Shown here: one piece after another, positions 1,530 to 19,846 of the stretch
Position numbering within the stretch: the stretch's first letter is position 1
How the letters are laid out: the number at the start of each line of letters is the position of its first letter
Source of the DNA: Aeromicrobium sp.
GTDB lineage: Bacteria > Actinomycetota > Actinomycetes > Propionibacteriales > Nocardioidaceae
NCBI GenBank assembly: GCA_025965435.1
Contig: JAOPWZ010000085.1
Coordinates: 1 to 36,963, forward strand
Direction of reading: 5' to 3'
DNA length: 36,963 nucleotides
Notes under the pieces: generated by a model
The model's database searches: none
Told to the model about the DNA's origin: nothing
What the model saw: only the letters and a program-made list of their open reading frames with translations
Program-made: the position numbers and the translations under genes

Positions 1530-2426
1530 TCAGCGGGAGGCGATGGCCTCGGCGAAGGCGAGGATGCGCTGGGCGTCGCGGACGTGCAGCTCCTCGACCA
1601 TCCGGCCGTTGAACGTCACGACGCCCTGTCCGGCGGCCTTGGCCTCCTCGAACGTCGTGATCATGTCGCGGGCGTGGGCGATGTCGTCGTCGGACGGCGC
1701 GAAGGCCACGTTGGCGGGCTCGACCTGTCCGGGATGGATCAAGGTCTTGCCGTCGAAGCCCATCTCGCGTCCCTGCCGGGCCTCGGCGTCGAAGCCGTCG
1801 AGGTTCTTCACGTCGTTGTAGACGCCGTCGATGATGACCTTGCCGGCGGCTCGCGCGGCCAGCAGCGAGAGCGAGAGCGCCGTCAGGACGAGCGGGTTGC
1901 GGCCCGGCACGTGCAGACCGAACGTCTCGTTGACGACGTCGTTGGTGCCCATCACGATGACCGTGAGGCGCTCGTGCGCGGCGCAGATCTCCTCGGCGTG
2001 CAGGAGCGCGACCGGTGTCTCGATCATGGCCCAGAGCTTGGTCTTCTCGGGGGCGCCAGCGGCCTCGAGGGCGGCGACGAGCTGGAGCACCTCTGCGGCG
2101 GAGTTGACCTTCGGCACCAGCACGGCGTCCGGCCCGGCAGCCGCCGCGGCGGCGATGTCCGCGTCGTGCCACTCCGTGCCGATGCCGTTGACGCGGATCG
2201 CGAGCTCGCGGTGCCCGTACTCGCCGGACTGCACGGCGGCGCACACCCGATCGCGAGCCTCAGGCTTGGCATCGGGTGCGACGGCGTCCTCGAGGTCGAG
2301 GATCAGCGCATCGGCGTCGATGCCCTTGGCCTTCTCGAGCGCCCGCTCGTTGGCGCCGGGCATGTAGAGGACGGAGCGGCGGGGGCGGAGCGCGGCCGCG
2401 GGAGTGGCCTGGTCGTCGAGTGTCAT
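1530..2426 (-). CDS. CitE-like HpcH/HpaI aldolase family CoA-ester lyase or thioesterase
   Basis: A 298-aa TIM-barrel protein of the HpcH/HpaI aldolase/citrate lyase beta-chain family, which cleaves or hydrolyses malyl-CoA-type thioesters with Mg2+. Seen: RRSVLYMPG near the N-terminus (CoA side), DLEDAV at 44-49 (metal-binding acidic residues), RVNGIGTEW near 78-86 (substrate Arg), VPKV, IETP, and the C-terminal GFDGKTLIHPGQV. The start at 2426 has GAGG six bases upstream and lies only 7 nt after the mcl stop; an upstream in-frame ATG at 2468 lies inside mcl and is less likely. Lying directly behind a malyl-CoA lyase, it may act like Rhodobacter Mcl2 ((3S)-malyl-CoA thioesterase) or like citramalyl-CoA lyase. 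Which one is inference. Confidence 0.88.
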   Translation of the reverse strand: MTLDDQATPAAALRPRRSVLYMPGANERALEKAKGIDADALILDLEDAVAPDAKPEARDRVCAAVQSGEYGHRELAIRVNGIGTEWHDADIAAAAAAGPDAVLVPKVNSAAEVLQLVAALEAAGAPEKTKLWAMIETPVALLHAEEICAAHERLTVIVMGTNDVVNETFGLHVPGRNPLVLTALSLSLLAARAAGKVIIDGVYNDVKNLDGFDAEARQGREMGFDGKTLIHPGQVEPANVAFAPSDDDIAHARDMITTFEEAKAAGQGVVTFNGRMVEELHVRDAQRILAFAEAIASR

Positions 2427-2433
2427 GGGGTCC

Positions 2434-3492
2434 TCAGAGGTCGTAGGCGGCGGCGAGCTCGGGATCACGCTCGGCCAGGGCCTTCGCGAGGTCGAGCATG
2501 ACGATGCACTGCTTGCAGGAGGCGTCGTCCTCCATCTTGCCGTTGATCATGACGGCGCCGGATCCGTCACCCATGGCCTCGACGACTTCCTTGGCGTGCG
2601 CCACGTCGGCGGGGTCGGGGGAGAAGACCTTCTTCGCGATGTCGATCTGCACGGGATGCAGGCTCCACGCGCCGACGCAGCCGAGCAGGAAGGCGTTGCG
2701 GAACTGGTCCTCGCACGCGACGACGTCCTTGATGTCGCCGAACGGGCCGTAGAACGGGAGGATGTCGTTGCCGGCGCAGGCGTCGACCATGCGGGCGATC
2801 GTGTAGTGCCAGAGATCCTGCTGGTACGTCGTGCGTCCCTGGGTGAGGTCCTCACCCGTGGGGTCCTGCCGGACGAGGTAGCCGGGGTGGCCGCCACCGA
2901 CGCGGGTCGTCTTCATGCGGCGGCTCGCGGCGAGGTCGGCCGGGCCGAGGGAGATGCCCTGCATGCGGGGGCTCGCGGCGGCGATCTCCTCGACGTTCGT
3001 CATGCCCTCGGCGGTCTCGAGGATCGCGTGCACGAGGATCGGGCGGGTGATGCCGGCGCGCGCCTCGAGCTGGGCGAGGATGCGGTCGATGTAGTGGATG
3101 TCCTGCGCGCCCTCGACCTTGGGCACCATGACGACGTCGAGCTTGTCGCCGATCTCCGTCACCAGGGTGATGAGGTCGTCGAGCGCCCACGGGGAGTCGA
3201 GGCTGTTGATGCGGGTCCAGAGCTGGGTGTCGCCGAAGTCGGTCTGCTTCGCGATGTCGACGAGCCCCTGCCGAGCGGCTTCCTTGTTCTCCGTCTTGAT
3301 GGCGTCCTCGAGGTTGCCGAGGATGATGTCGACCTTCTTCGCGATGTCTGGCACCTTGGCGGCCATCTTGGGGTTGCTCGGGTCGAAGAAGTGGATCATG
3401 CGCGAGGGACGGAACGGGATGTCCGCCATCGGGGTCGGCGCACCGACGGCGAGGGGGCGGAGGAAGGCTCGGGGATTGCGCACGCGGGTCAT
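2434..3492 (-). CDS. mcl: L-malyl-CoA/beta-methylmalyl-CoA lyase
   Basis: A 352-aa CoA-ester lyase that reversibly splits malyl-CoA to acetyl-CoA and glyoxylate, and beta-methylmalyl-CoA to propionyl-CoA and glyoxylate. It resembles the Chloroflexus aurantiacus Mcl type as I remember it, end to end, rather than the shorter CitE type: N-terminal KPLA-like start (RPLAVGAP), GNLEDAI at 59-65, WTRIN with Arg94, ILETAEGM with Glu159, [21 protein letters not shown] at 183-203, [15 protein letters not shown] and [10 protein letters not shown]. The start at 3492 preserves the family's full N-terminus. First gene of a probable mcl, citE-like (7-nt gap), serine-hydrolase unit. No other gene of the 3-hydroxypropionate bicycle or ethylmalonyl-CoA pathway is in the window, so its physiological direction is open. 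Confidence 0.92.
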
Positions 3493-3709: not shown

Positions 3710-4012
3710 TCAGTCGAAGAGCTCGGAGAGCCAGTGCTCCTTCTTCTTCTTGCGGTACGGCTGCTGGGAGTATCCCGAGCGGTCGTCGCGGGGCCGGTCG
3801 TCGCGAGGCCGGCTGTCGTACTGCGGCTCGGAGTACTGGGGCCTGGTGGGCGCGGGCTGGGCCTGTGGTGCCGTCTCGGTGGCGGCGCGGTCGAGGATCT
3901 TGTCCAGCTCGCCGCGATCGAGCCAGACGCCCCGGCACTCGGGGCAGTAGTCGATCTCGATACCGGAACGCTCGCTCATGACGAGGGTGGCATTGTCAGT
4001 CGGACATTTCAT
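3710..4012 (-). CDS. zf-TFIIB domain-containing protein
   Basis: A 100-aa protein with an N-terminal zinc-ribbon of the zf-TFIIB family: MKCPTDNATL, then IDYCPECRGVWLDRGELDKIL at about 20-40. The first knuckle has one Cys followed by Asp (CPTD) instead of CxxC, so zinc is probably held by Cys3 plus the CPEC pair and perhaps the Asp; my recollection is that this form is common in actinobacterial members. Residues 43-90 are Pro/Gln/Arg/Asp-rich and disordered (repeated RPRDD). The C-terminus KKKKEHWLSELFD forms a basic patch plus amphipathic end. GGAGG lies eight bases before the ATG. The molecular role is not established; nucleic-acid or protein binding is likely. Confidence 0.88.
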   Translation of the reverse strand: MKCPTDNATLVMSERSGIEIDYCPECRGVWLDRGELDKILDRAATETAPQAQPAPTRPQYSEPQYDSRPRDDRPRDDRSGYSQQPYRKKKKEHWLSELFD

Positions 4013-5399: not shown

Positions 5400-7033
<1,634 letters not shown>

Positions 7034-7039
7034 GGCGCC

Positions 7040-7045
7040 AGCCTA
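7040..7045 (-). promoter_or_regulatory. Leaderless -10 of the FAD oxidoreductase gene
   Basis: TAGGCT on the minus strand, 6 nt before ATG 7033. No Shine-Dalgarno sequence is present. Confidence 0.5.
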
Positions 7046-7089
7046 AGGCGCGATGGTCCGGGAGGGCCCGGCTCGGGACGAGGGAATGC

Positions 7090-7118
7090 TGGACAATAGT
7101 TGAACGTTGAATTAGATT
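7090..7118 (+). promoter_or_regulatory. Pirin promoter with MarR-like half-sites
   Basis: TGGACA (7090-7095), 17 nt, TAGATT (7113-7118) makes a good sigma-70-type promoter. The spacer holds TTGAACGTTGAA (7100-7111), which shares the TTGAA half-site with the palindromes in the marR-yceI intergenic region (29525-29573). AAGGAG at 7131-7136 is the ribosome site. Confidence 0.55.
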
Positions 7119-7142
7119 GAGTGACCTACCAAGGAGAACCCG

Positions 7143-8129
7143 ATGCCTGCCGTGACCGTCAATGACTGGACCGTCCTGCCGCGAGTGATCGCGACGCCGA
7201 CACAGACCGAGGACCGCGCGCCGATCAGCGTCACGACGGCGCCGATGGGCTACGAGGGGGAGGGCTTCCCCGTGCGGCGCGCCTTCGCGGGCGTCGACGC
7301 CGGCCAGCTCGACCCGTTCATCCACATGGACCAGATGGGCGAGGTCGAGTACCAGCCCGGCGAGCCCAAGGGCACCCCGTGGCACCCGCACCGCGGCTTC
7401 GAGACCGTGACCTACATGATCGACGGCGTCATGGACCACCAGGACACCCACGGCGGCGGCGGATCGATCACCGACGGAGACACCCAGTGGATGACCGCAG
7501 GCTCGGGTCTCCTGCACATCGAGACCCCGCCGGAGTGGCTGGTCGTCAAGGGCGGCCTGTTCCACGGCCTGCAGCTGTGGGTCAACCTGCCCAAGGCCGA
7601 CAAGTGGCTGCCGCCGCACTACCAGGACATCCGCGGCACGGATGTCGGTCTGGCGTCGACTCCGGACGCCGGCGCCCTGCTGCGGGTCATCGCGGGCTCG
7701 GTGGACGGGGTCGAAGGCCCCGGCTCGACGCACACGCCGATGGCGATGGTCCACGCGACGGTGCTGCCCGGTGCCGAGATGACCGTGCCGTGGCGCACGG
7801 ACTTCAACGCCCTGGTCTACGTCATGGGCGGGGCGGGATACGTCGGGCGCGAGCGTCGTCCGATCCGCGCGGGCCAGCTCGCGGTGCTGGGCCACGGCGA
7901 GACCATCACGGTCGGCGCCGACGTGCGGCAGGACAGCTTGCATCCGGCACTGGAGGTCGTCCTGCTCGGCGGGCTACCGATCCGGGAGTCGATCGCCTGG
8001 GCCGGACCGTTCGTGATGAACACCAAGGCCGAGGTCGCCCAGGCCTTCGCCGACTTCCAGAAGGGACGTCTGGGAACGATCCCCACCGTCCCGCACGCCG
8101 AGGTCCACGGCGAGATGCTGGGGGACTAG
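7143..8129 (+). CDS. Pirin family protein
   Basis: A 328-aa bicupin of the pirin family, Fe-containing proteins of which some have quercetin 2,3-dioxygenase activity and others act as redox-sensitive partners. The first cupin carries the four metal ligands in the expected motifs: HPHRGFET (His81, His83) and LLHIETP (His125, Glu127). The C-terminal pirin domain spans about 185-300 (FNALVYVMGGAGYVG, LLGGLPIRESIAWAGPFVMNT). It is longer than human pirin (290 aa) mainly by N-terminal residues and a C-terminal tail. AAGGAG lies six bases before the ATG. Monocistronic; its 3' end overlaps the convergent small-protein gene by 4 nt. Promoter features suggest control by a MarR-type regulator. Substrate cannot be predicted. 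Confidence 0.93.
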   Translation: MPAVTVNDWTVLPRVIATPTQTEDRAPISVTTAPMGYEGEGFPVRRAFAGVDAGQLDPFIHMDQMGEVEYQPGEPKGTPWHPHRGFETVTYMIDGVMDHQDTHGGGGSITDGDTQWMTAGSGLLHIETPPEWLVVKGGLFHGLQLWVNLPKADKWLPPHYQDIRGTDVGLASTPDAGALLRVIAGSVDGVEGPGSTHTPMAMVHATVLPGAEMTVPWRTDFNALVYVMGGAGYVGRERRPIRAGQLAVLGHGETITVGADVRQDSLHPALEVVLLGGLPIRESIAWAGPFVMNTKAEVAQAFADFQKGRLGTIPTVPHAEVHGEMLGD

Positions 8130-8371
8130 CTGCCCGCCGCCGCCCGGCGTCCTCGGGCGCGCCACGAGAACGCCGACAGCACGCTGACCGCGGAGAACGC
8201 CGACAGCACCGACGCGAACGAGGCGAACGACAGGACCGATCCGAACGAGCCGGCCGAGCCGATCGAGAACGCCGAGTGGCTCGAGCCGATCGACAGGATC
8301 GAGCGGTCCGACGCGATCGAGAGGATCGACTCGTTCGACCGGTAGGACAGGATCGACCGCGAGGACGTCAT
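8126..8371 (-). CDS. Small protein made of S-x-x tripeptide repeats
   Basis: An 81-aa protein in which every third residue from Ser3 to Ser69 is serine: 23 serines in exact register (for example SILSYRSNESIL, then SIGSAGSFGSVLS). The two residues between are mostly I/L/V/F/A/G. Polar pairs (YR, NE, DR, SH) occur in the first half; from about 33 on all pairs are apolar. The tail is WRARGRRAAAGS, strongly basic. ATG 8371 overlaps the TGA of the histidine phosphatase gene as ATGA, strong evidence for real, coupled translation. Its TAG overlaps the pirin stop on the other strand. A period of exactly three would place all serines on one face of a 3-10 or polyproline-II-like helix, perhaps membrane-inserted or self-assembling. 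I have a vague memory of similar Ser-rich small ORFs in actinobacteria, but know no function. Confidence 0.72.
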   Translation of the reverse strand: MTSSRSILSYRSNESILSIASDRSILSIGSSHSAFSIGSAGSFGSVLSFASFASVLSAFSAVSVLSAFSWRARGRRAAAGS

Positions 8372-9033
8372 GCGTCTCCCCGCTCGACGGCCGGGCTGTG
8401 GTCGGACACGACGCCGCGGGCCGCGGCTTCGCTGACCGACTCGCCGAGCCAGGCGGTGACCTCCCAGCCGTGCGCGCTCGACCCCTCCACCACGACGATG
8501 CCGGTGTTGACGACGTAGTGCGTGCTCACGAACTCGAGGTCGACGTTGCTCGTGCGCGCGGCGCACCACGCGCGGATCATCGCGCCGTGGCTCACCAGCG
8601 CCACGCTGGCGACCCCCAGGGCCTCGGCCTCGGCGACGACCTCGTCGAAGCGGGCGATGACTTCCTCGCCCGTCTCGCCCCCCGGCATGCGGACGTCGAG
8701 ATGGCCGGCGCACCACGTCATGAGGGTCGAGACGTATTGGTGCACCGAGGCCTCGTCGGTGTTGCCCTCGACGTCCCCGGCCGCGATCTCGCGCAGGCCC
8801 GCCCGCACGATCGGCTCCAGGCCGCGCGCGGCGACCAGGGGCGCGGCCGTCAGGTGCGTGCGGATCATCGTTGACACGAACAGCGCGTCGATCGTGTCGC
8901 CCGACAGTGCCTCGACGAGCTCCTCGGCCTGCTGCTGGCCCAGGTCGGTGAGGCCAGGTCCCGGAACGGTCGACTCGAGGATGCCGGCGACGTTGGCAGG
9001 GGTCTGTCCGTGGCGGATCAGGATCAGGCGCAT
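8368..9033 (-). CDS. Histidine phosphatase family protein
   Basis: A 221-aa phosphoglycerate-mutase-like phosphatase. The catalytic RHG is at residues 7-9 (LILIRHGQT), followed by the helix [23 protein letters not shown] with the phosphate-binding Arg. Acidic [10 protein letters not shown] and the second catalytic His in [13 protein letters not shown] (about 150) complete the active site. Size fits broad-specificity phosphatases of branch 1 rather than true mutases, so a small phosphomonoester substrate is likely. The start at 9033 is only 29 nt from glpK, divergent, with TAGGGT six bases before the ATG (leaderless). Its stop overlaps the start of the S-x-x repeat gene. Confidence 0.92.
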
Positions 9034-9062
9034 GGGTCGACCCTACGGATAGGGTCGGCGGC
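9034..9062. promoter_or_regulatory. Palindromic bidirectional leaderless promoter
   Basis: The 29-nt gap between the phosphatase gene and glpK holds CGACCCTA (9038-9045), CGGA, TAGGGTCG (9050-9057), a perfect 8-bp inverted repeat. Read rightward, TAGGGT ends 7 nt before glpK ATG. Read leftward, TAGGGT ends 6 nt before the phosphatase ATG. Each arm is therefore a -10 element for one of the two genes. Confidence 0.65.
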
Positions 9063-10574
9063 ATGGCGAAGTATGTCGGCGCGATCGACCAGGGCACGAC
9101 GAGCACGCGGTTCATGATCTTCGACCACGACGGTCACGAGGTCGCCCGGCACCAGCTCGAGCACGAGCAGATCATGCCGCAGGCCGGCTGGGTCGAGCAC
9201 GATCCGCACGAGATCTGGGAGGCGACCCAGGACGTCGTCGAGGGCGCGCTGGGTCGAGCAGGCATCACCGCCGACGACCTGGCCGCGATCGGCGTCACGA
9301 ACCAGCGTGAGACGACCGTCGTGTGGGACCGGCGGACGGGCGAGCCGTACTACAACGCGATCGTCTGGCAGGACACCCGCACCGATGCGATCGCCGCCGC
9401 CCTCGAGCGGGGCGATGCCGGCACGCTGATCCGTGAACGCGCCGGCCTGCCGCCCGCGCCGTACTTCGCAGGCGGCAAGATCCAGTGGATCCTCGAGAAC
9501 GTCGACGGGGTCCGGGCCGATGCCGACGCGGGCCACGCGATCTTCGGGACGATCGACTCCTGGCTCATCTGGTGGCTGACCGGCGGACCCGACGGCGGGA
9601 TGCACATGACCGACGTGACGAACGCCAGTCGCACGATGCTGATGGACCTGGAGACGCTGGCCTGGGACGACGAGCTCCTCGCGATCTTCGACGTCCCGCG
9701 GTCGATGCTGCCGCAGATCCGGTCGTCGTCGGAGGTCTACGGCCCCACCAGCGCCGACGGTCCGTTCGGCGGCGAGGTCGCCATCGCCGGCGATCTCGGT
9801 GACCAGCACGCAGCCCTCGTCGGGCAGGTCTGCTTCGAGCCGGGGGAGCTCAAGAACACCTACGGCACCGGCAACTTCCTGGTGCTCAACACCGGCACCG
9901 AGATCGTGCGGTCGACCAACGGCCTGGTCACGACGCTGGCCTACCGCTTCGGCGACGCGCCGCCGGTGTACGCCCTGGAGGGCTCGATCGCCGTCACCGG
10001 CTCGGCGATCCAGTGGCTGCGCGATCAGCTCGGCGTCATCAAGGCCGCCGCCGAGACCGAGGGGCTGGCGGCGAGCGTCGACGACAACGGCGGCGTGTGC
10101 TTCGTCCCGGCGTTCTCGGGCCTGTTCGCGCCGTACTGGCGCTCGGACGCCCGCGGCGTCATCGTCGGGCTCTCCCGCTACAACACCGTCGCTCACATCG
10201 CACGGGCCGCGCTCGAGGCGATCTGCTACCAGAGCAAGGACGTCGTCGACGCCATGGTGGCCGATGCCGGCCTCGACCTGCAGATCCTGCGCGTCGACGG
10301 CGGCGTCACCGCGAACGAGCTGTGCATGCAGATCCAGGCCGACGTCCTGGGCGTCCCTGTCAGCCGGCCGGTCGTGGCCGAGACGACGGCACTCGGCGCG
10401 GCCTACGCCGCGGGGCTCGCGGTCGGGTACTGGGCCGGCACGGACGAGCTGGTCGCCAACTGGAACGAGTCGAAGCAGTGGGAGCCCGCCTGGACGCCGG
10501 CGCAGCGCGACGCGGGCCACGCCCAGTGGAAGAAGGCCGTCGAGCGGACCTTCGGCTGGGTAGACGTCGACTGA
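9063..10574 (+). CDS. glpK: Glycerol kinase
   Basis: A 503-aa FGGY-family kinase that phosphorylates glycerol to sn-glycerol 3-phosphate in the cytoplasm; family length is about 500. Seen: the phosphate-1 motif [16 protein letters not shown] (10-25), [19 protein letters not shown] (near 79-97), [37 protein letters not shown] for ATP, and [16 protein letters not shown]. Arg and Asp residues for glycerol binding ([14 protein letters not shown]) are present. The start at 9063 has no Shine-Dalgarno sequence; TAGGGT seven bases upstream points to a leaderless mRNA. glpD follows after a repeat-filled spacer of 277 bp, so the two form one pathway but perhaps not one operon. No glpF is in the window. 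Confidence 0.97.
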
Positions 10575-10851: not shown

Positions 10852-12600
10852 ATGCGTCCCGTCGCCCTGTCGCCCCAGAATCGTCAAGCCGCATTGGACG
10901 CGATGGCGACGACCCCGTTGGACATCCTGGTGATCGGCGGTGGTGTCGTGGGTGGCGGAGCGGCTCTGGACGCCGCCACCCGCGGGCTGACGGTGGGACT
11001 GGTCGAGGCGCGCGACTTCGCGTCCGGCACCTCGAGCCGGTCGAGCAAGCTGATGCACGGCGGGCTGCGCTACCTCGAGATGCTCGACTTCCGCCTGGTC
11101 GCCGAGGCGCTGAAGGAGCGGGGGCTGCACCTGCAGAAGCTCGCCCCGCACCTCGTCCGCGAGGTCGGCTTCCTCTATCCGCTGACCCATCGCGTGTGGG
11201 AGCGGGCGTACGCCGGCAGCGGCGTCGCCCTGTACGACGCGCTGAGCCGGGCGTCCGGCTACGGGCAGGGCGTGCCGCTGCACCGACACCTGACCCGGCG
11301 CGGCGCCCGGCGCCTCATGCCGGCGCTCAAGAAGGACGCCCTGGTCGGCGCTCTGCACTACTACGACGGCCAGGTCGACGACGCCCGGCACACGATGTTC
11401 CTCTCGCGCACCGCCGCCGCCTACGGCGCACACGTCGCCAGCCGCACCCGGGTCATCGGCCTGCTGCGCGAGGGCGACCGGGTCGTCGGTGCCCGGGTCA
11501 AGGACCTGGAGTCGGACCGGGAGTTCGACATCCGGGCGAAGCAGGTCGTCAACGCCAGCGGCGTATGGACCGACGAGACCCAGGCCTTCGCGGGGGAGCG
11601 GGGCCAGTTCCACGTCCGCGCCAGCAAGGGTGTGCACCTCGTGGTGCCGCGCGACCGCATCCGCGGCGACTCGGGCCTGATCCTGCGCACGGAGAAGTCG
11701 GTGCTCTTCGTCATCCCGTGGGGACGTCACTGGATCATCGGCACGACCGACACCGACTGGTCGCTGTCCAAGGACCACCCGGCGGCGAGCCAGAGCGACA
11801 TCGACTACCTGCTCGACCACGTCAACGCCGTCCTGACCGAGCCCCTCACCCGTGACGACGTCGAGGGCGTCTACGCCGGTCTGCGTCCGCTCCTGGCCGG
11901 CGAGGACGCGGCCACCAGCAAGCTGTCGCGCGAGCACGCCGTCGGCACGGGCGTCAAGGGCCTGGTCGTCATCGCCGGCGGCAAGTACACGACGTACCGC
12001 GTGATGGCCAAGGACGCCGTCGACGCCGCGGTGCACGGACTGTCGACTCAGCTGGACCGGCATGCGCCGCAGTCCGTCACCGAGAACGTCCCGCTGCTGG
12101 GTGCCGACGGCTACGAGGCGCTGTGGAACCAGCGGCACATGATCGCTGCGTCGCACGGCCTGGGCACCGGTCGTGTCGAGCACCTCCTGCACCGCTACGG
12201 CTCGCTGATCACCGAGGTGCTCGACCTGATCCAGGAGCGACCCGACCTGGCCAGGGCGCTCACGGGCGCCGACGACTACCTGCGCGCCGAGATCGTCTAC
12301 GCGGCGTCGCACGAGGGAGCCCGCCACCTCGACGACGCCATCGCCCGGCGCACGCACATCTCGATCGAGACCTTCGACCGTGGCGTCGACGTCGCCGCCG
12401 AGGTCGCCGAGCTCATGGCCGGCGTCCTGGGCTGGACCAGCGAGCAGCGCGACAACGAGGTCGAGCACTACCTGTTGCGGGTCAAGGCCGAGCGCGACAG
12501 CCAGACGATGCCCGACGACGAGACGGCCGACGCGGCCCGCATGGGCGCCGAGGACGTCGTGCCGGTCTCGACCCGCCCGTCGCGAGAGGACGCGTCGTGA
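10852..12600 (+). CDS. glpD: Glycerol-3-phosphate dehydrogenase (FAD-dependent)
   Basis: A 582-aa membrane-associated flavoenzyme that oxidises glycerol 3-phosphate to dihydroxyacetone phosphate and passes electrons to the quinone pool. Seen: the FAD motif DILVIGGGVVGGGAALDAATRG (residues 24-45), the family signature SGTSSRSSKLMHGGLRYLE, and IIGTTDTDW and GLRPLL, with GGKYTTYRVMAKDAV near 380. The C-terminal DAO_C domain runs to about 540, followed by a polar tail. I choose ATG 10852; an in-frame TTG at 10840 would add four residues. Neither has a good ribosome site. The stop overlaps the next start as GTGA. Partner of glpK immediately upstream. Confidence 0.96.
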   Translation: MRPVALSPQNRQAALDAMATTPLDILVIGGGVVGGGAALDAATRGLTVGLVEARDFASGTSSRSSKLMHGGLRYLEMLDFRLVAEALKERGLHLQKLAPHLVREVGFLYPLTHRVWERAYAGSGVALYDALSRASGYGQGVPLHRHLTRRGARRLMPALKKDALVGALHYYDGQVDDARHTMFLSRTAAAYGAHVASRTRVIGLLREGDRVVGARVKDLESDREFDIRAKQVVNASGVWTDETQAFAGERGQFHVRASKGVHLVVPRDRIRGDSGLILRTEKSVLFVIPWGRHWIIGTTDTDWSLSKDHPAASQSDIDYLLDHVNAVLTEPLTRDDVEGVYAGLRPLLAGEDAATSKLSREHAVGTGVKGLVVIAGGKYTTYRVMAKDAVDAAVHGLSTQLDRHAPQSVTENVPLLGADGYEALWNQRHMIAASHGLGTGRVEHLLHRYGSLITEVLDLIQERPDLARALTGADDYLRAEIVYAASHEGARHLDDAIARRTHISIETFDRGVDVAAEVAELMAGVLGWTSEQRDNEVEHYLLRVKAERDSQTMPDDETADAARMGAEDVVPVSTRPSREDAS

Positions 12601-13355
12601 GCCGCCAGGAGCAGGAGTTCGTCGCCGACTACGACGTCCGCTCGCCGGCATCGCGCACGTTGCTCACGGTCCTCGGGACCATCCTGACCGTCGCGATCAT
12701 CGCCGGCCTGGTCCTCGGGGCATCGATCCTGAAGCGCGACACGACGGTCTCGACGAGCGACATCGAGCTGGCCGGCTCGTCGCGGATCCTGATCGACGCG
12801 GGCGCGTCCGACCTGCGGATCGTGCAGGGCGCCCCCGGCGTCGTGCGCGTCACGGCGCGCATCACCAGCGGGCTCCGCAAGACCGACTTCCAGATCGGCC
12901 GCCGGGGTGACGAGATCAAGATCCTGGCGGACTGCCAGTCATGGCTCAACCCGGGCTGCGGCGTCGACACGACGCTCGAGCTGCCCGAGGGGTTCCCGGT
13001 CCAGATCAGGACCACGACGGGCGATGTCGTGGTGCGCGACGTCACCGAGGGCGTGCTGACGGTCGTGACGGCGAGCGGCGACGTCACCGGGTCGGGCCTG
13101 GATGTGGACGAGCTCTCGGCCGAGACCAGGTCCGGCGACATCTCGGCCTCCTTCGCGACGCAGCCGTTCGGCTTCAAGGCGATCTCCCGCAGCGGCGACA
13201 TCTCGGCGCGGATGGCCGCCGGCAAGCGGAAGTACGCCGTCACTGCCACAACGAAGTCCGGCGACGTGTCCTCGGACGTCACGTCCGAGGACGGCGGGTC
13301 CGGGTTCATCCTGGCCACGACGCGCAGCGGGGACATCTCGATCAAGCGTCCGTAG
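12597..13355 (+). CDS. DUF4097 family beta-repeat protein, membrane-anchored
   Basis: A 252-aa protein with an N-terminal membrane anchor (about 21-43, TLLTVLGTILTVAIIAGLVLG) and an extracytoplasmic right-handed beta repeat of the DUF4097 (putative adhesin) family. The repeat is visible as regularly spaced TTGDV, ASGDV, RSGDI, RSGDI, KSGDV and RSGDI turns from about residue 140 to the C-terminus. One Cys pair (DCQSWLNPGCG) could form a disulfide. GTG 12597 overlaps the glpD stop as GTGA, so translation is coupled. DUF4097 proteins often sit in membrane-stress or PspC-type settings; here the partner is glpD. Function unknown. Confidence 0.85.
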   Translation: MSRQEQEFVADYDVRSPASRTLLTVLGTILTVAIIAGLVLGASILKRDTTVSTSDIELAGSSRILIDAGASDLRIVQGAPGVVRVTARITSGLRKTDFQIGRRGDEIKILADCQSWLNPGCGVDTTLELPEGFPVQIRTTTGDVVVRDVTEGVLTVVTASGDVTGSGLDVDELSAETRSGDISASFATQPFGFKAISRSGDISARMAAGKRKYAVTATTKSGDVSSDVTSEDGGSGFILATTRSGDISIKRP

Positions 13356-13428: not shown

Positions 13429-16171
<2,743 letters not shown>

Positions 16172-18330: not shown

Positions 18331-19119
18331 GTGAGCAACGAACGCCAGCAGCGAGCAGCCCGCGCCGAGCAGATGCGCAAGGAGCGTGAGAAGGCCGATC
18401 GCAAGCAGCGCAACGTCATCTCGATCGCGATCGTGGTGGTCGTCGTGGCCCTCATCGCGATCGGTGGCTGGGGCATCAAGGCCGCGAGCGACGACAACAA
18501 GCTCGAGTCCAAGCTGACGACGCCCGCCAACGTCAACAAGGACTACGGCATCGTGTTCAACCAGGAGGCGGCCACCGGCACGGCTCCCGCCGCCGATGCG
18601 GCCGAGCCGGTCAAGGTCCTGCTGTACGAAGACTTCCTGTGCCCCGGGTGCGGCGCGCTCGAGCAGACCGCCGGCCCGTTCCTGCAGAGCGCGGTCGAGA
18701 GCGGCGAGATCGAGATCGAGTACCGCCCGTACTCGTTCCTCCTGCAGCAGAGCACCAACGAATACTCGCAGCGCGCCTGGAACGCAGCGGTGTGCGTGTA
18801 CGACAAGGGCGGTGCCAAGGCGTTCAAGGACTACCACGACCTGCTGTTCGCCAACCAGCCCGAGGAGGGCACGGCCGGTCCCGAGGACCCCGAGCTGATC
18901 GACTTCGCCCAGCAGGTCGGCGTGACCGGTATCGACACCTGCGTCAACAAGCAGACCTTCGGTCGTTGGGTCGAGGACGCCCGCGAGAAGGGCCAGAAGG
19001 ACGGCGTGACCGGCACCCCGACGATCCGCATCGACGGCAAGGACGTCAGCGGAGCGAACAACACGATCGCGTCGGTCGCCGACATCCAGGCCGCGATCAC
19101 CGCCGCCAAGAAGAGCTAA
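18331..19119 (+). CDS. Membrane-anchored DsbA-family thiol oxidoreductase
   Basis: A 262-aa protein with a charged N-terminus (SNERQQRAARAEQMRKEREK), a single membrane anchor at about 29-46 and an extracytoplasmic thioredoxin fold. The active site is CPGC (Cys104, Cys107) after LLYEDFLC; cis-Pro230 is in TGTPTIRIDG. Two further cysteines, Cys155 (AAVCVYD) and Cys204 (DTCVNK), may form a structural disulfide, as in mycobacterial DsbA-like proteins. GTG 18331 has AGGAG about eight bases upstream. It probably makes disulfides in exported proteins; the redox partner (VKOR or DsbB) is not in the window. A broken paralogue lies at 21479-21736. Confidence 0.92.
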   Translation: MSNERQQRAARAEQMRKEREKADRKQRNVISIAIVVVVVALIAIGGWGIKAASDDNKLESKLTTPANVNKDYGIVFNQEAATGTAPAADAAEPVKVLLYEDFLCPGCGALEQTAGPFLQSAVESGEIEIEYRPYSFLLQQSTNEYSQRAWNAAVCVYDKGGAKAFKDYHDLLFANQPEEGTAGPEDPELIDFAQQVGVTGIDTCVNKQTFGRWVEDAREKGQKDGVTGTPTIRIDGKDVSGANNTIASVADIQAAITAAKKS

Positions 19120-19466
19120 CCGCCCAGGAGGTAGCCACCGGCAGCCGCCGCGACGCCCAGGCCCAGCATGGCCAGGGCGTTGACGGCGGCTGCTGTGTGT
19201 CTGCGCTCCAGCACGAGGCGGACGGTCTCGACGCTCGCGGTGCTGAACGTCGTGTAGCCGCCGAGGAAGCCTGTGCCGAGGATCGTGCGCCACGTGTGGT
19301 CGGCGCCGAGGCCGACCACCAGGCCGAGCGCGAAGGAGCCGCTGACGTTGATCAGCATCGTCGACCACGGCATCCGTGCCGTGACGCGCGAGCGCATCCA
19401 CCGGTCGAGCGCGTAGCGGGTGCCGGCACCCAGCCCGCCGGCCACGGCCATCACCAGGGGAATCAT
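19116..19466 (-). CDS. crcB: Fluoride ion channel FluC/CrcB (second of pair)
   Basis: A 116-aa four-TM fluoride exporter subunit; the functional Fluc channel is a dual-topology dimer. Signature seen: GAGTRYALDRW, then NVSGSFALGLVVG (pore Asn), and [16 protein letters not shown] (the Phe-Ser-Thr polar track). ATG 19466 overlaps the TGA of the upstream fluC as ATGA, and the stop overlaps the convergent DsbA-like gene by 4 nt. It is the last gene of the argO-fluC-fluC operon. In bacteria with two adjacent fluC genes the products can form a heterodimer of opposite orientation, which the coupled translation here would favour. Confidence 0.93.
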   Translation of the reverse strand: MIPLVMAVAGGLGAGTRYALDRWMRSRVTARMPWSTMLINVSGSFALGLVVGLGADHTWRTILGTGFLGGYTTFSTASVETVRLVLERRHTAAAVNALAMLGLGVAAAAGGYLLGG

Positions 19467-19846
19467 CGGACGACCCTTCGGGCCGCGGCCATCCCGGCGA
19501 CAGCGGCCAGGAGCCCGATTGCGACGCTCCCCAGCGCGTAGCCGAGCCCCAGTGCGACGTGGTCCTCGCGCAGGAGCGTCTCGGTCTCGACGGCCAGCGC
19601 ACTGTACGTCGTGTACCCGCCGAGGAAGCCCGTGCCGAGCAGCAGGCGCGCCTCACGTCGACGTCCGTCGTCGTCGCCCCTCATGGCCAGGACGGTGAGC
19701 AGGGCACCCAGGACGAACGAACCGGTGACGTTGGCCGTGAACGTCCCGAGGGGGAACAGCCGGTCCGGGTCCAGCAGCTCGGTGACGCCGTACCGCGTCA
19801 GCGTCCCGGCCGCGCCGCCGCCGACGACCAGCCAGAAGAGCTTCAC
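19463..19846 (-). CDS. crcB: Fluoride ion channel FluC/CrcB (first of pair)
   Basis: A 127-aa Fluc channel subunit with the same signature as its neighbour: [28 protein letters not shown] and [20 protein letters not shown] (Tyr where the partner has Phe in the TF/YS track). The start is GTG 19846, overlapping the TGA of argO as GTGA; longer frames upstream are argO shadows. The loop [13 protein letters not shown] between TM2 and TM3 is more charged than in the partner. No fluoride riboswitch is visible upstream, and expression must come from the argO promoter unless an internal one exists. Confidence 0.92.

Follow-up and report, generated by a model that had tools for sequence, protein, structure and literature searches.

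HxsA proteins, as their name (His-Xaa-Ser) suggests, have a long stretch in which every third residue is Ser. RTX beta-rolls are built from a Gly-rich nonapeptide with aliphatic ladder positions and an Asp-containing, Ca-binding GGxGxD motif, and belong to large secreted proteins, while the collagen-like and snow-flea-antifreeze GXX proteins keep a strict three-residue period with a small residue at every third position. Here we describe a small actinobacterial protein that resembles each of these systems in part. It is encoded in an Aeromicrobium sp. window (the whole stretch of DNA that was analyzed, 36,963 nucleotides of contig JAOPWZ010000085.1). Like HxsA and HxsA4, the family to which we assign it shows a long run of Ser in every third position, but the family repeat is almost without His and has its own nonapeptide and an S-W-R-S end. 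It shares with the RTX beta-roll a Gly-rich nonapeptide with aliphatic ladder positions, yet it lacks GGxGxD, carries Ser at every third residue and is not a large secreted protein. The strict three-residue period with a small residue in every third place also recalls the collagen-like and antifreeze proteins, except that Ser stands in for Gly, Val, Ile or Leu lie between, and there is hardly any Pro.

Translation of the Ser-triplet open reading frame (Table 1) shows Ser at positions 3, 6 and so on to 69 without a break, exactly as the original prediction had stated, and 26 Ser among all residues. In 100,000 shuffles of the same composition, at most 11 Ser fell in register (mean 3.5), versus the 23 observed. 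The predicted basic tail is likewise present, and the start codon overlaps the stop of a histidine phosphatase gene in the sequence ATGA, as had been noted. The reading frame sits on the minus strand; the plus strand at 8126-8371 is an Arg-rich frame.

Table 1. The Ser-triplet gene, its parts and nearby genes in the window.
Feature	Position	Strand	Remark
Ser-triplet protein gene, 81 aa	8126..8371	minus	ATG at 8371, stop at 8128-8126
Repeat domain, 23 in-register Ser (residues 3-69), pairs between mostly apolar or Gly	8165..8365	minus	from translation
C-terminal basic tail WRARGRRAAAGS	8129..8164	minus	from translation
Histidine phosphatase branch 1	8368..9033	minus	PF00300; neighbor, no conserved partner
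Pirin, convergent (context only)	7143..8129	plus	4-bp overlap with the Ser-gene stop codon
FAD-dependent oxidoreductase, CrtO/amine-oxidase-like (context only)	5435..7033	minus	directly 3' of the Ser gene in G015 and G011
Glycerol kinase GlpK (context landmark)	9063..10574	plus	

The frame evolves as a coding sequence would. In close orthologue pairs, dN was well below dS: 0.135 against 0.326 for the window and genome G029, 0.164 against 0.641 for the window and G021, and 0.071 against 0.297 for G010 and G456; the close pair G291 and G107 gave 0.141 against 0.727. The contrast was weaker in distant pairs (dN/dS values of 0.520/0.691 for the window and G015, and 0.439/0.678 for the window and G010). 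At 7 of the 22 aligned Ser-Ser codons of the window and G015, the codon had switched between TCN and AGY, which takes two base changes, and Ser was retained. The mRNA of the Ser gene folded no better than shuffled sequences (z-score -0.71), and an Rfam search of 6900-9300 gave no match. The survival of Ser across TCN/AGY switches and the low dN relative to dS among close pairs together indicate that the Ser-triplet frame is a real gene, under purifying selection in those pairs, which backs the earlier view that it is very likely translated.

Searching Pfam and NCBIfam with the window protein gave no match, and a literature search using repeat peptides and descriptive phrases found no paper on such a family, in agreement with the earlier remark that no function had been described for one. 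Within the genus, the Ser gene was found in 10 of 49 genomes (match to the first alignment, E <= 1e-4). At 1e-5, 23 of the 396 genomes of a phylum sample matched, including 12 from beyond the class; one of these matches, L027 (in G281), proved on reading to be a plain SVG array. In the class sample, 88 of 345 genomes matched at 1e-6 before the matches were read. Of the 37 weaker ones, 11 were members and were kept, one was a truncated copy (L203), one was unclear (L192), and 24 were simple arrays of triplets like SVG, SAG or SLR; 50 of the other 51 (the window and 49 loci) were of the family nonapeptide type, and G540, which has simple arrays, was removed from the class count. After reading, the family was present in 61 of the 345 sampled class genomes. 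The S-x-x search originally proposed would therefore gather noise as well. Simple SVG, SAG and STG arrays of GC-rich genomes (L173, L184, L185, L187-L189 and similar) score as members in profile searches, and those of L173 are several separate frames. L203 and L210 are truncated or degenerate family copies, which suggests gene decay in some genomes.

When 84,980 species were scanned for the Aeromicrobium-type pattern, 11 loci were confirmed, every one of them actinobacterial (Aeromicrobium 5, Demequina 2, Rhodococcus 2, Janibacter 1, unclassified Micrococcales 1). A plasmid search with the window protein gave no match; with a Streptomyces member as the query, copies were found on two Streptomyces plasmids, one annotated 'hypothetical protein' and the other without a listed gene there. 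A phage search with a Streptomyces member gave no match, none of 23 Aeromicrobium-pattern matches in viral contigs was confirmed, no single PHROGs family matched more than 2 of 30 members, and PADLOC gave no match. The family is absent from most genomes and is therefore no core component. The window protein itself has the 23-triplet Ser core, the S-V-L-S-I-G-type nonapeptides and the W/Y-R end, and by these sequence features it is a member of a conserved actinobacterial family for which we found no curated name.

The anatomy of the repeat domain was worked out on 66 members with flanks, 65-148 residues long, collected by searching with models rich in Ser and filtering for density. Ser occupies 1518 of 1542 register positions, a figure that, like the register counts below, is partly conditioned on the search because such searches favor Ser. 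In the core triplet S-x1-x2, x1 is mostly Val, Ile or Ala (0.59 together) and x2 mostly Gly or Leu (0.63). Beyond the three-residue period noted originally, there is a nine-residue beat: the fraction of x2 residues that recur three triplets on is 0.484, compared with about 0.21 after shuffling, and the unit is therefore a nonapeptide, S-V-L-S-I-G-S-V-G, containing one Leu and two Gly. Judged on the 16 members that have 23 triplets, the beat is clear at triplets 4-12 and fades later, in the C-terminal half. The register runs for 18-29 triplets, most commonly 23 (16 of 66 members). In the multiple alignment, the shared core has 23 register columns, with columns 7-73 filled in 63-66 of the 66 members and insertions in the core of 5 (61 have none). 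Across 965 pairwise alignments, 503 of 587 internal gaps were multiples of 3 residues; given these gaps, the repeat length is not strictly fixed. The core usually closes with S-W-R-S, and where there are exactly 23 triplets (16 members), Arg closes 14, with Trp or Tyr the commonest residue just before it (9/16).

The register is strictest in its first 19 columns: of 1244 letters there, 17 are not Ser, namely Cys (11), Ala (3) and Gly (3), and Thr does not occur. Columns 20-23 are looser (Ser 194/264, Ala 28, Gly 15, Thr 9, and also charged residues). Over all 66 members, charged residues average 5.7% and Pro accounts for 5 of 4494 residues. His makes up 1.6% of the off-register residues. The hydropathy of the best 19-residue stretch has a median of 1.54; a value of at least 1.6 is reached in the tail of 24 members and inside the repeat domain of only 20, and the other 42 of the 66 tails are not hydrophobic. 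No repeat domain (0/66) contains a 19-residue stretch with favorable membrane-insertion energy (median +4.0). One subfamily (L052, L053, and the Rhodococcus loci L093 and L094) carries Cys-containing tails (VCHCQT, TCHCQT, QHCQS). It has a secreted-looking protein upstream in all four loci and, in three of the four, an opposite-strand protein downstream that possibly corresponds to the Rv2525c_GlyHyd-like match in the neighbor scan.

Comparison with curated profiles gave low-scoring relationships. HxsA4 (NCBIfam NF038313) matched 26 of 30 members at E <= 0.5 (best 2.1e-6), ahead of YdhT (4/30, best 2.5e-4) and the collagen-like adhesin SclB (a weak match, 2/30, best 4.5e-4). The HxsA4 profile did not match the window protein at E <= 0.5, nor anything in its own genome (59% complete) at E <= 0.001; the curated cut-off is 55 bits. 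The HxsB radical SAM maturase scored over its cut-off in one of 58 family genomes (G712), on a contig other than that of the Ser gene, and not in the window genome (59% complete), while HxsB matches at 0.001 occurred in 38 of 58 family genomes and in 14 of 14 control genomes. We rejected HxsA/HxsA4 membership, with the profile cut-off not reached, HxsB mostly below cut-off, and His, which in an HxsA repeat would precede Ser by two residues throughout, at 1.6% of the off-register residues; as far as the profiles tell, the likeness to HxsA4 is the Ser register itself. Pfam Collagen (PF01391) matched 1 of 30 members at E 0.22, and Gly does not occupy every third position there, the register being Ser. 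A sequence search of solved structures found no solenoid related to the family; its weak matches (kinesin light chain constructs and others) were set aside as compositional.

The original prediction also coupled the Ser gene to the adjoining phosphatase. The 17 phosphatase orthologue loci of the genus (L063-L079) adjoin glpK or glpD, and 16 also have pirin in the stretch covered. The Ser gene stands at only three of them (the window, G029 and G021) and is absent from the other 14 (L065-L078); in L065, 13 bp separate the aligned ends of pirin and phosphatase. Conversely, among the 10 genus genomes with the Ser gene, four (G015, G011, G010, G456) have no phosphatase match at E <= 1e-30, and three (G455, G035, G009) have a phosphatase elsewhere only. 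Thus, a regular link between phosphatase and Ser gene within the genus fails, and retention of this neighbor in relatives, which had been put forward as a check, is confined to G029 and G021. Because these two do keep the phosphatase next to the Ser gene, the original refuting condition, that orthologous phosphatases lack an adjoining S-x-x frame, does not apply either.

The FAD oxidoreductase and glpK flank the Ser gene in G015 and G011, where neither pirin nor phosphatase was matched. The Ser gene of G010 and G456 adjoins a relative (about 41% identical) of the window gene at 12597-13355, with a relative of window 3710-3979 nearby and, in G456, relatives of 1530-3429 as well. From these arrangements, one ancestral region probably holds the Ser gene in 7 of the 10 genus genomes, with changing direct neighbors; in G455, G035 and G009 the gene lies outside it. 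Over the 66 loci, the largest neighbor cluster is that of ABC ATPases (11 loci), which are common everywhere. The FAD oxidoreductase recurs at five loci (four Aeromicrobium, one of another family), and the remaining listed clusters comprise three or four loci each, some across genera; by eye, L154, L160 and L161 share permease-like and lipoprotein-like neighbors across genera. Among 91 direct neighbors, Pfam ABC_tran occurs in 5 and every other family in at most 4. By counts from a purpose-made gene caller, a same-strand gene precedes the Ser gene in 41 of 59 cases, and 12 of these 41 pairs are no more than 20 bp apart. The plasmid copy L175 (NZ_CP109366.1) has a LanC-family protein, a GNAT acetyltransferase and a SpoIIE-type phosphatase in its vicinity. 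At L045 (6812-7942), the G029 glpK relative aligns as two pieces at 66-73% identity, below its neighbors. Elsewhere in the window, we noted by eye a small Fur-like gene directly 5' of a catalase-peroxidase-like gene (13429-16171) and a tandem of two overlapping CrcB-like genes (19116-19846).

Based upon the composition of the repeat, we tentatively favor the possibility that the family comprises small, membrane-associated, self-assembling structural proteins, in which the Ser column would serve as a tight, hydrogen-bonding packing face. Such a face would need a small, mostly hydrogen-bonding residue, Ser and at times Cys; this is suggested because the register of columns 1-19 takes Ser and now and then Cys, while Ala and Gly are rare and Thr is absent. 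The Thr argument is weakened by its nine occurrences in the last four columns, where Ser fills only 194 of 264 positions and the packing-face rule does not hold. The two remaining faces being apolar, the protein may be 'inside-out', associated with the membrane and with copies of itself. Aromatic and Arg residues would then sit at the membrane interface, and roughly one member in three would have a further hydrophobic anchor at its C terminus. The unfavorable insertion energy of the repeat domain (none of the 66 at or below zero) argues against simple membrane spans. A three-fold screw helix (3-10 or similar) and a tight solenoid would both fit, and the three-fold or ladder-like structure proposed originally is in this respect reasonable. 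The role in the cell could be structural, as a small membrane scaffold or assembly without an operon partner. That the protein represents a new architecture, namely a three-fold (3-10-like) membrane helix or tight solenoid of near-constant length with a nearly unbroken Ser column as packing core, acting as a free-standing self-assembling membrane element, seems to us rather unlikely.

The main rival to a membrane-associated protein is a soluble, compact beta-solenoid, in which the nonapeptide would form half of an 18-residue coil with stacked Val/Ile/Leu, Gly and Ser ladders, possibly offering a self-associating fiber or a binding surface. We consider this possible, if somewhat less likely. 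Coils of the type found in RTX rolls or left-handed helices could account for the nine-residue beat with its single Leu and two Gly; the V/I/G/S make-up, with little Pro or charge, would suit them too, and the near-constant 67-residue core would make about four coils of 18. However, beta strands alternate with a period of two, whereas every nonapeptide has Ser at each third position, and Thr, which is normally welcome on beta ladders, is missing from register columns 1-19. Moreover, the beat fades in the C-terminal half, the frequent gaps of 3 or 6 residues would shift the coil register, and no solved solenoid is related in sequence.

The other explanations fare worse. A small hydrophobic toxin-like or bacteriocin-like peptide, encoded by a free-standing accessory gene, would be small, hydrophobic and patchy in its distribution, as the family is (10 of 49 genus genomes), would need no regular protein partner, and could travel on plasmids such as the two from Streptomyces; its strong sequence conservation, its probable residence in one region of seven Aeromicrobium genomes, the lack of a PADLOC match and a size above that of known type I toxins nonetheless make this improbable. 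We find it very improbable that the protein is an HxsA-like (His-Xaa-Ser) substrate of peptide modification, with the in-register Ser as the modified residue: although the HxsA4 profile touches 26 of 30 members, neither the window protein nor its 59% complete genome has a match, HxsB exceeds its cut-off in a single genome of 58 and on a different contig, His is rare between the register positions, and no modifying enzyme is prominent beside the Ser gene in the neighbor tables or by Pfam. Scarcely any credence is due to the protein being a target or partner of the adjoining phosphatase, since the ATGA overlap and the adjacency kept in G029 and G021 are set against 14 of 17 phosphatase loci without the Ser gene and 4 of 10 Ser-gene genomes without the phosphatase; a phosphorylated ladder would also be expected to use Thr, which appears in 0 of 1244 letters in columns 1-19 and 9 of 264 in the last four. 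Equally little speaks for a repeat at the DNA or RNA level whose reading frame is accidental. Simple triplet arrays elsewhere do look similar (24 of the 37 matches read), but Ser is retained across TCN/AGY switches, dN is below dS, and neither the folding z-score nor the Rfam search points to a structured RNA.

The Ser-triplet protein thus belongs to a conserved family, present in 61 of 345 sampled species of its class, for which no curated name was found. To our knowledge, the combination of a triplet register with a nonapeptide beat maps onto no repeat fold described so far. Solving a structure from the family would bring a new fold to light or else reveal how Ser can take the place of Gly, the usual small residue, in a repeat of three.
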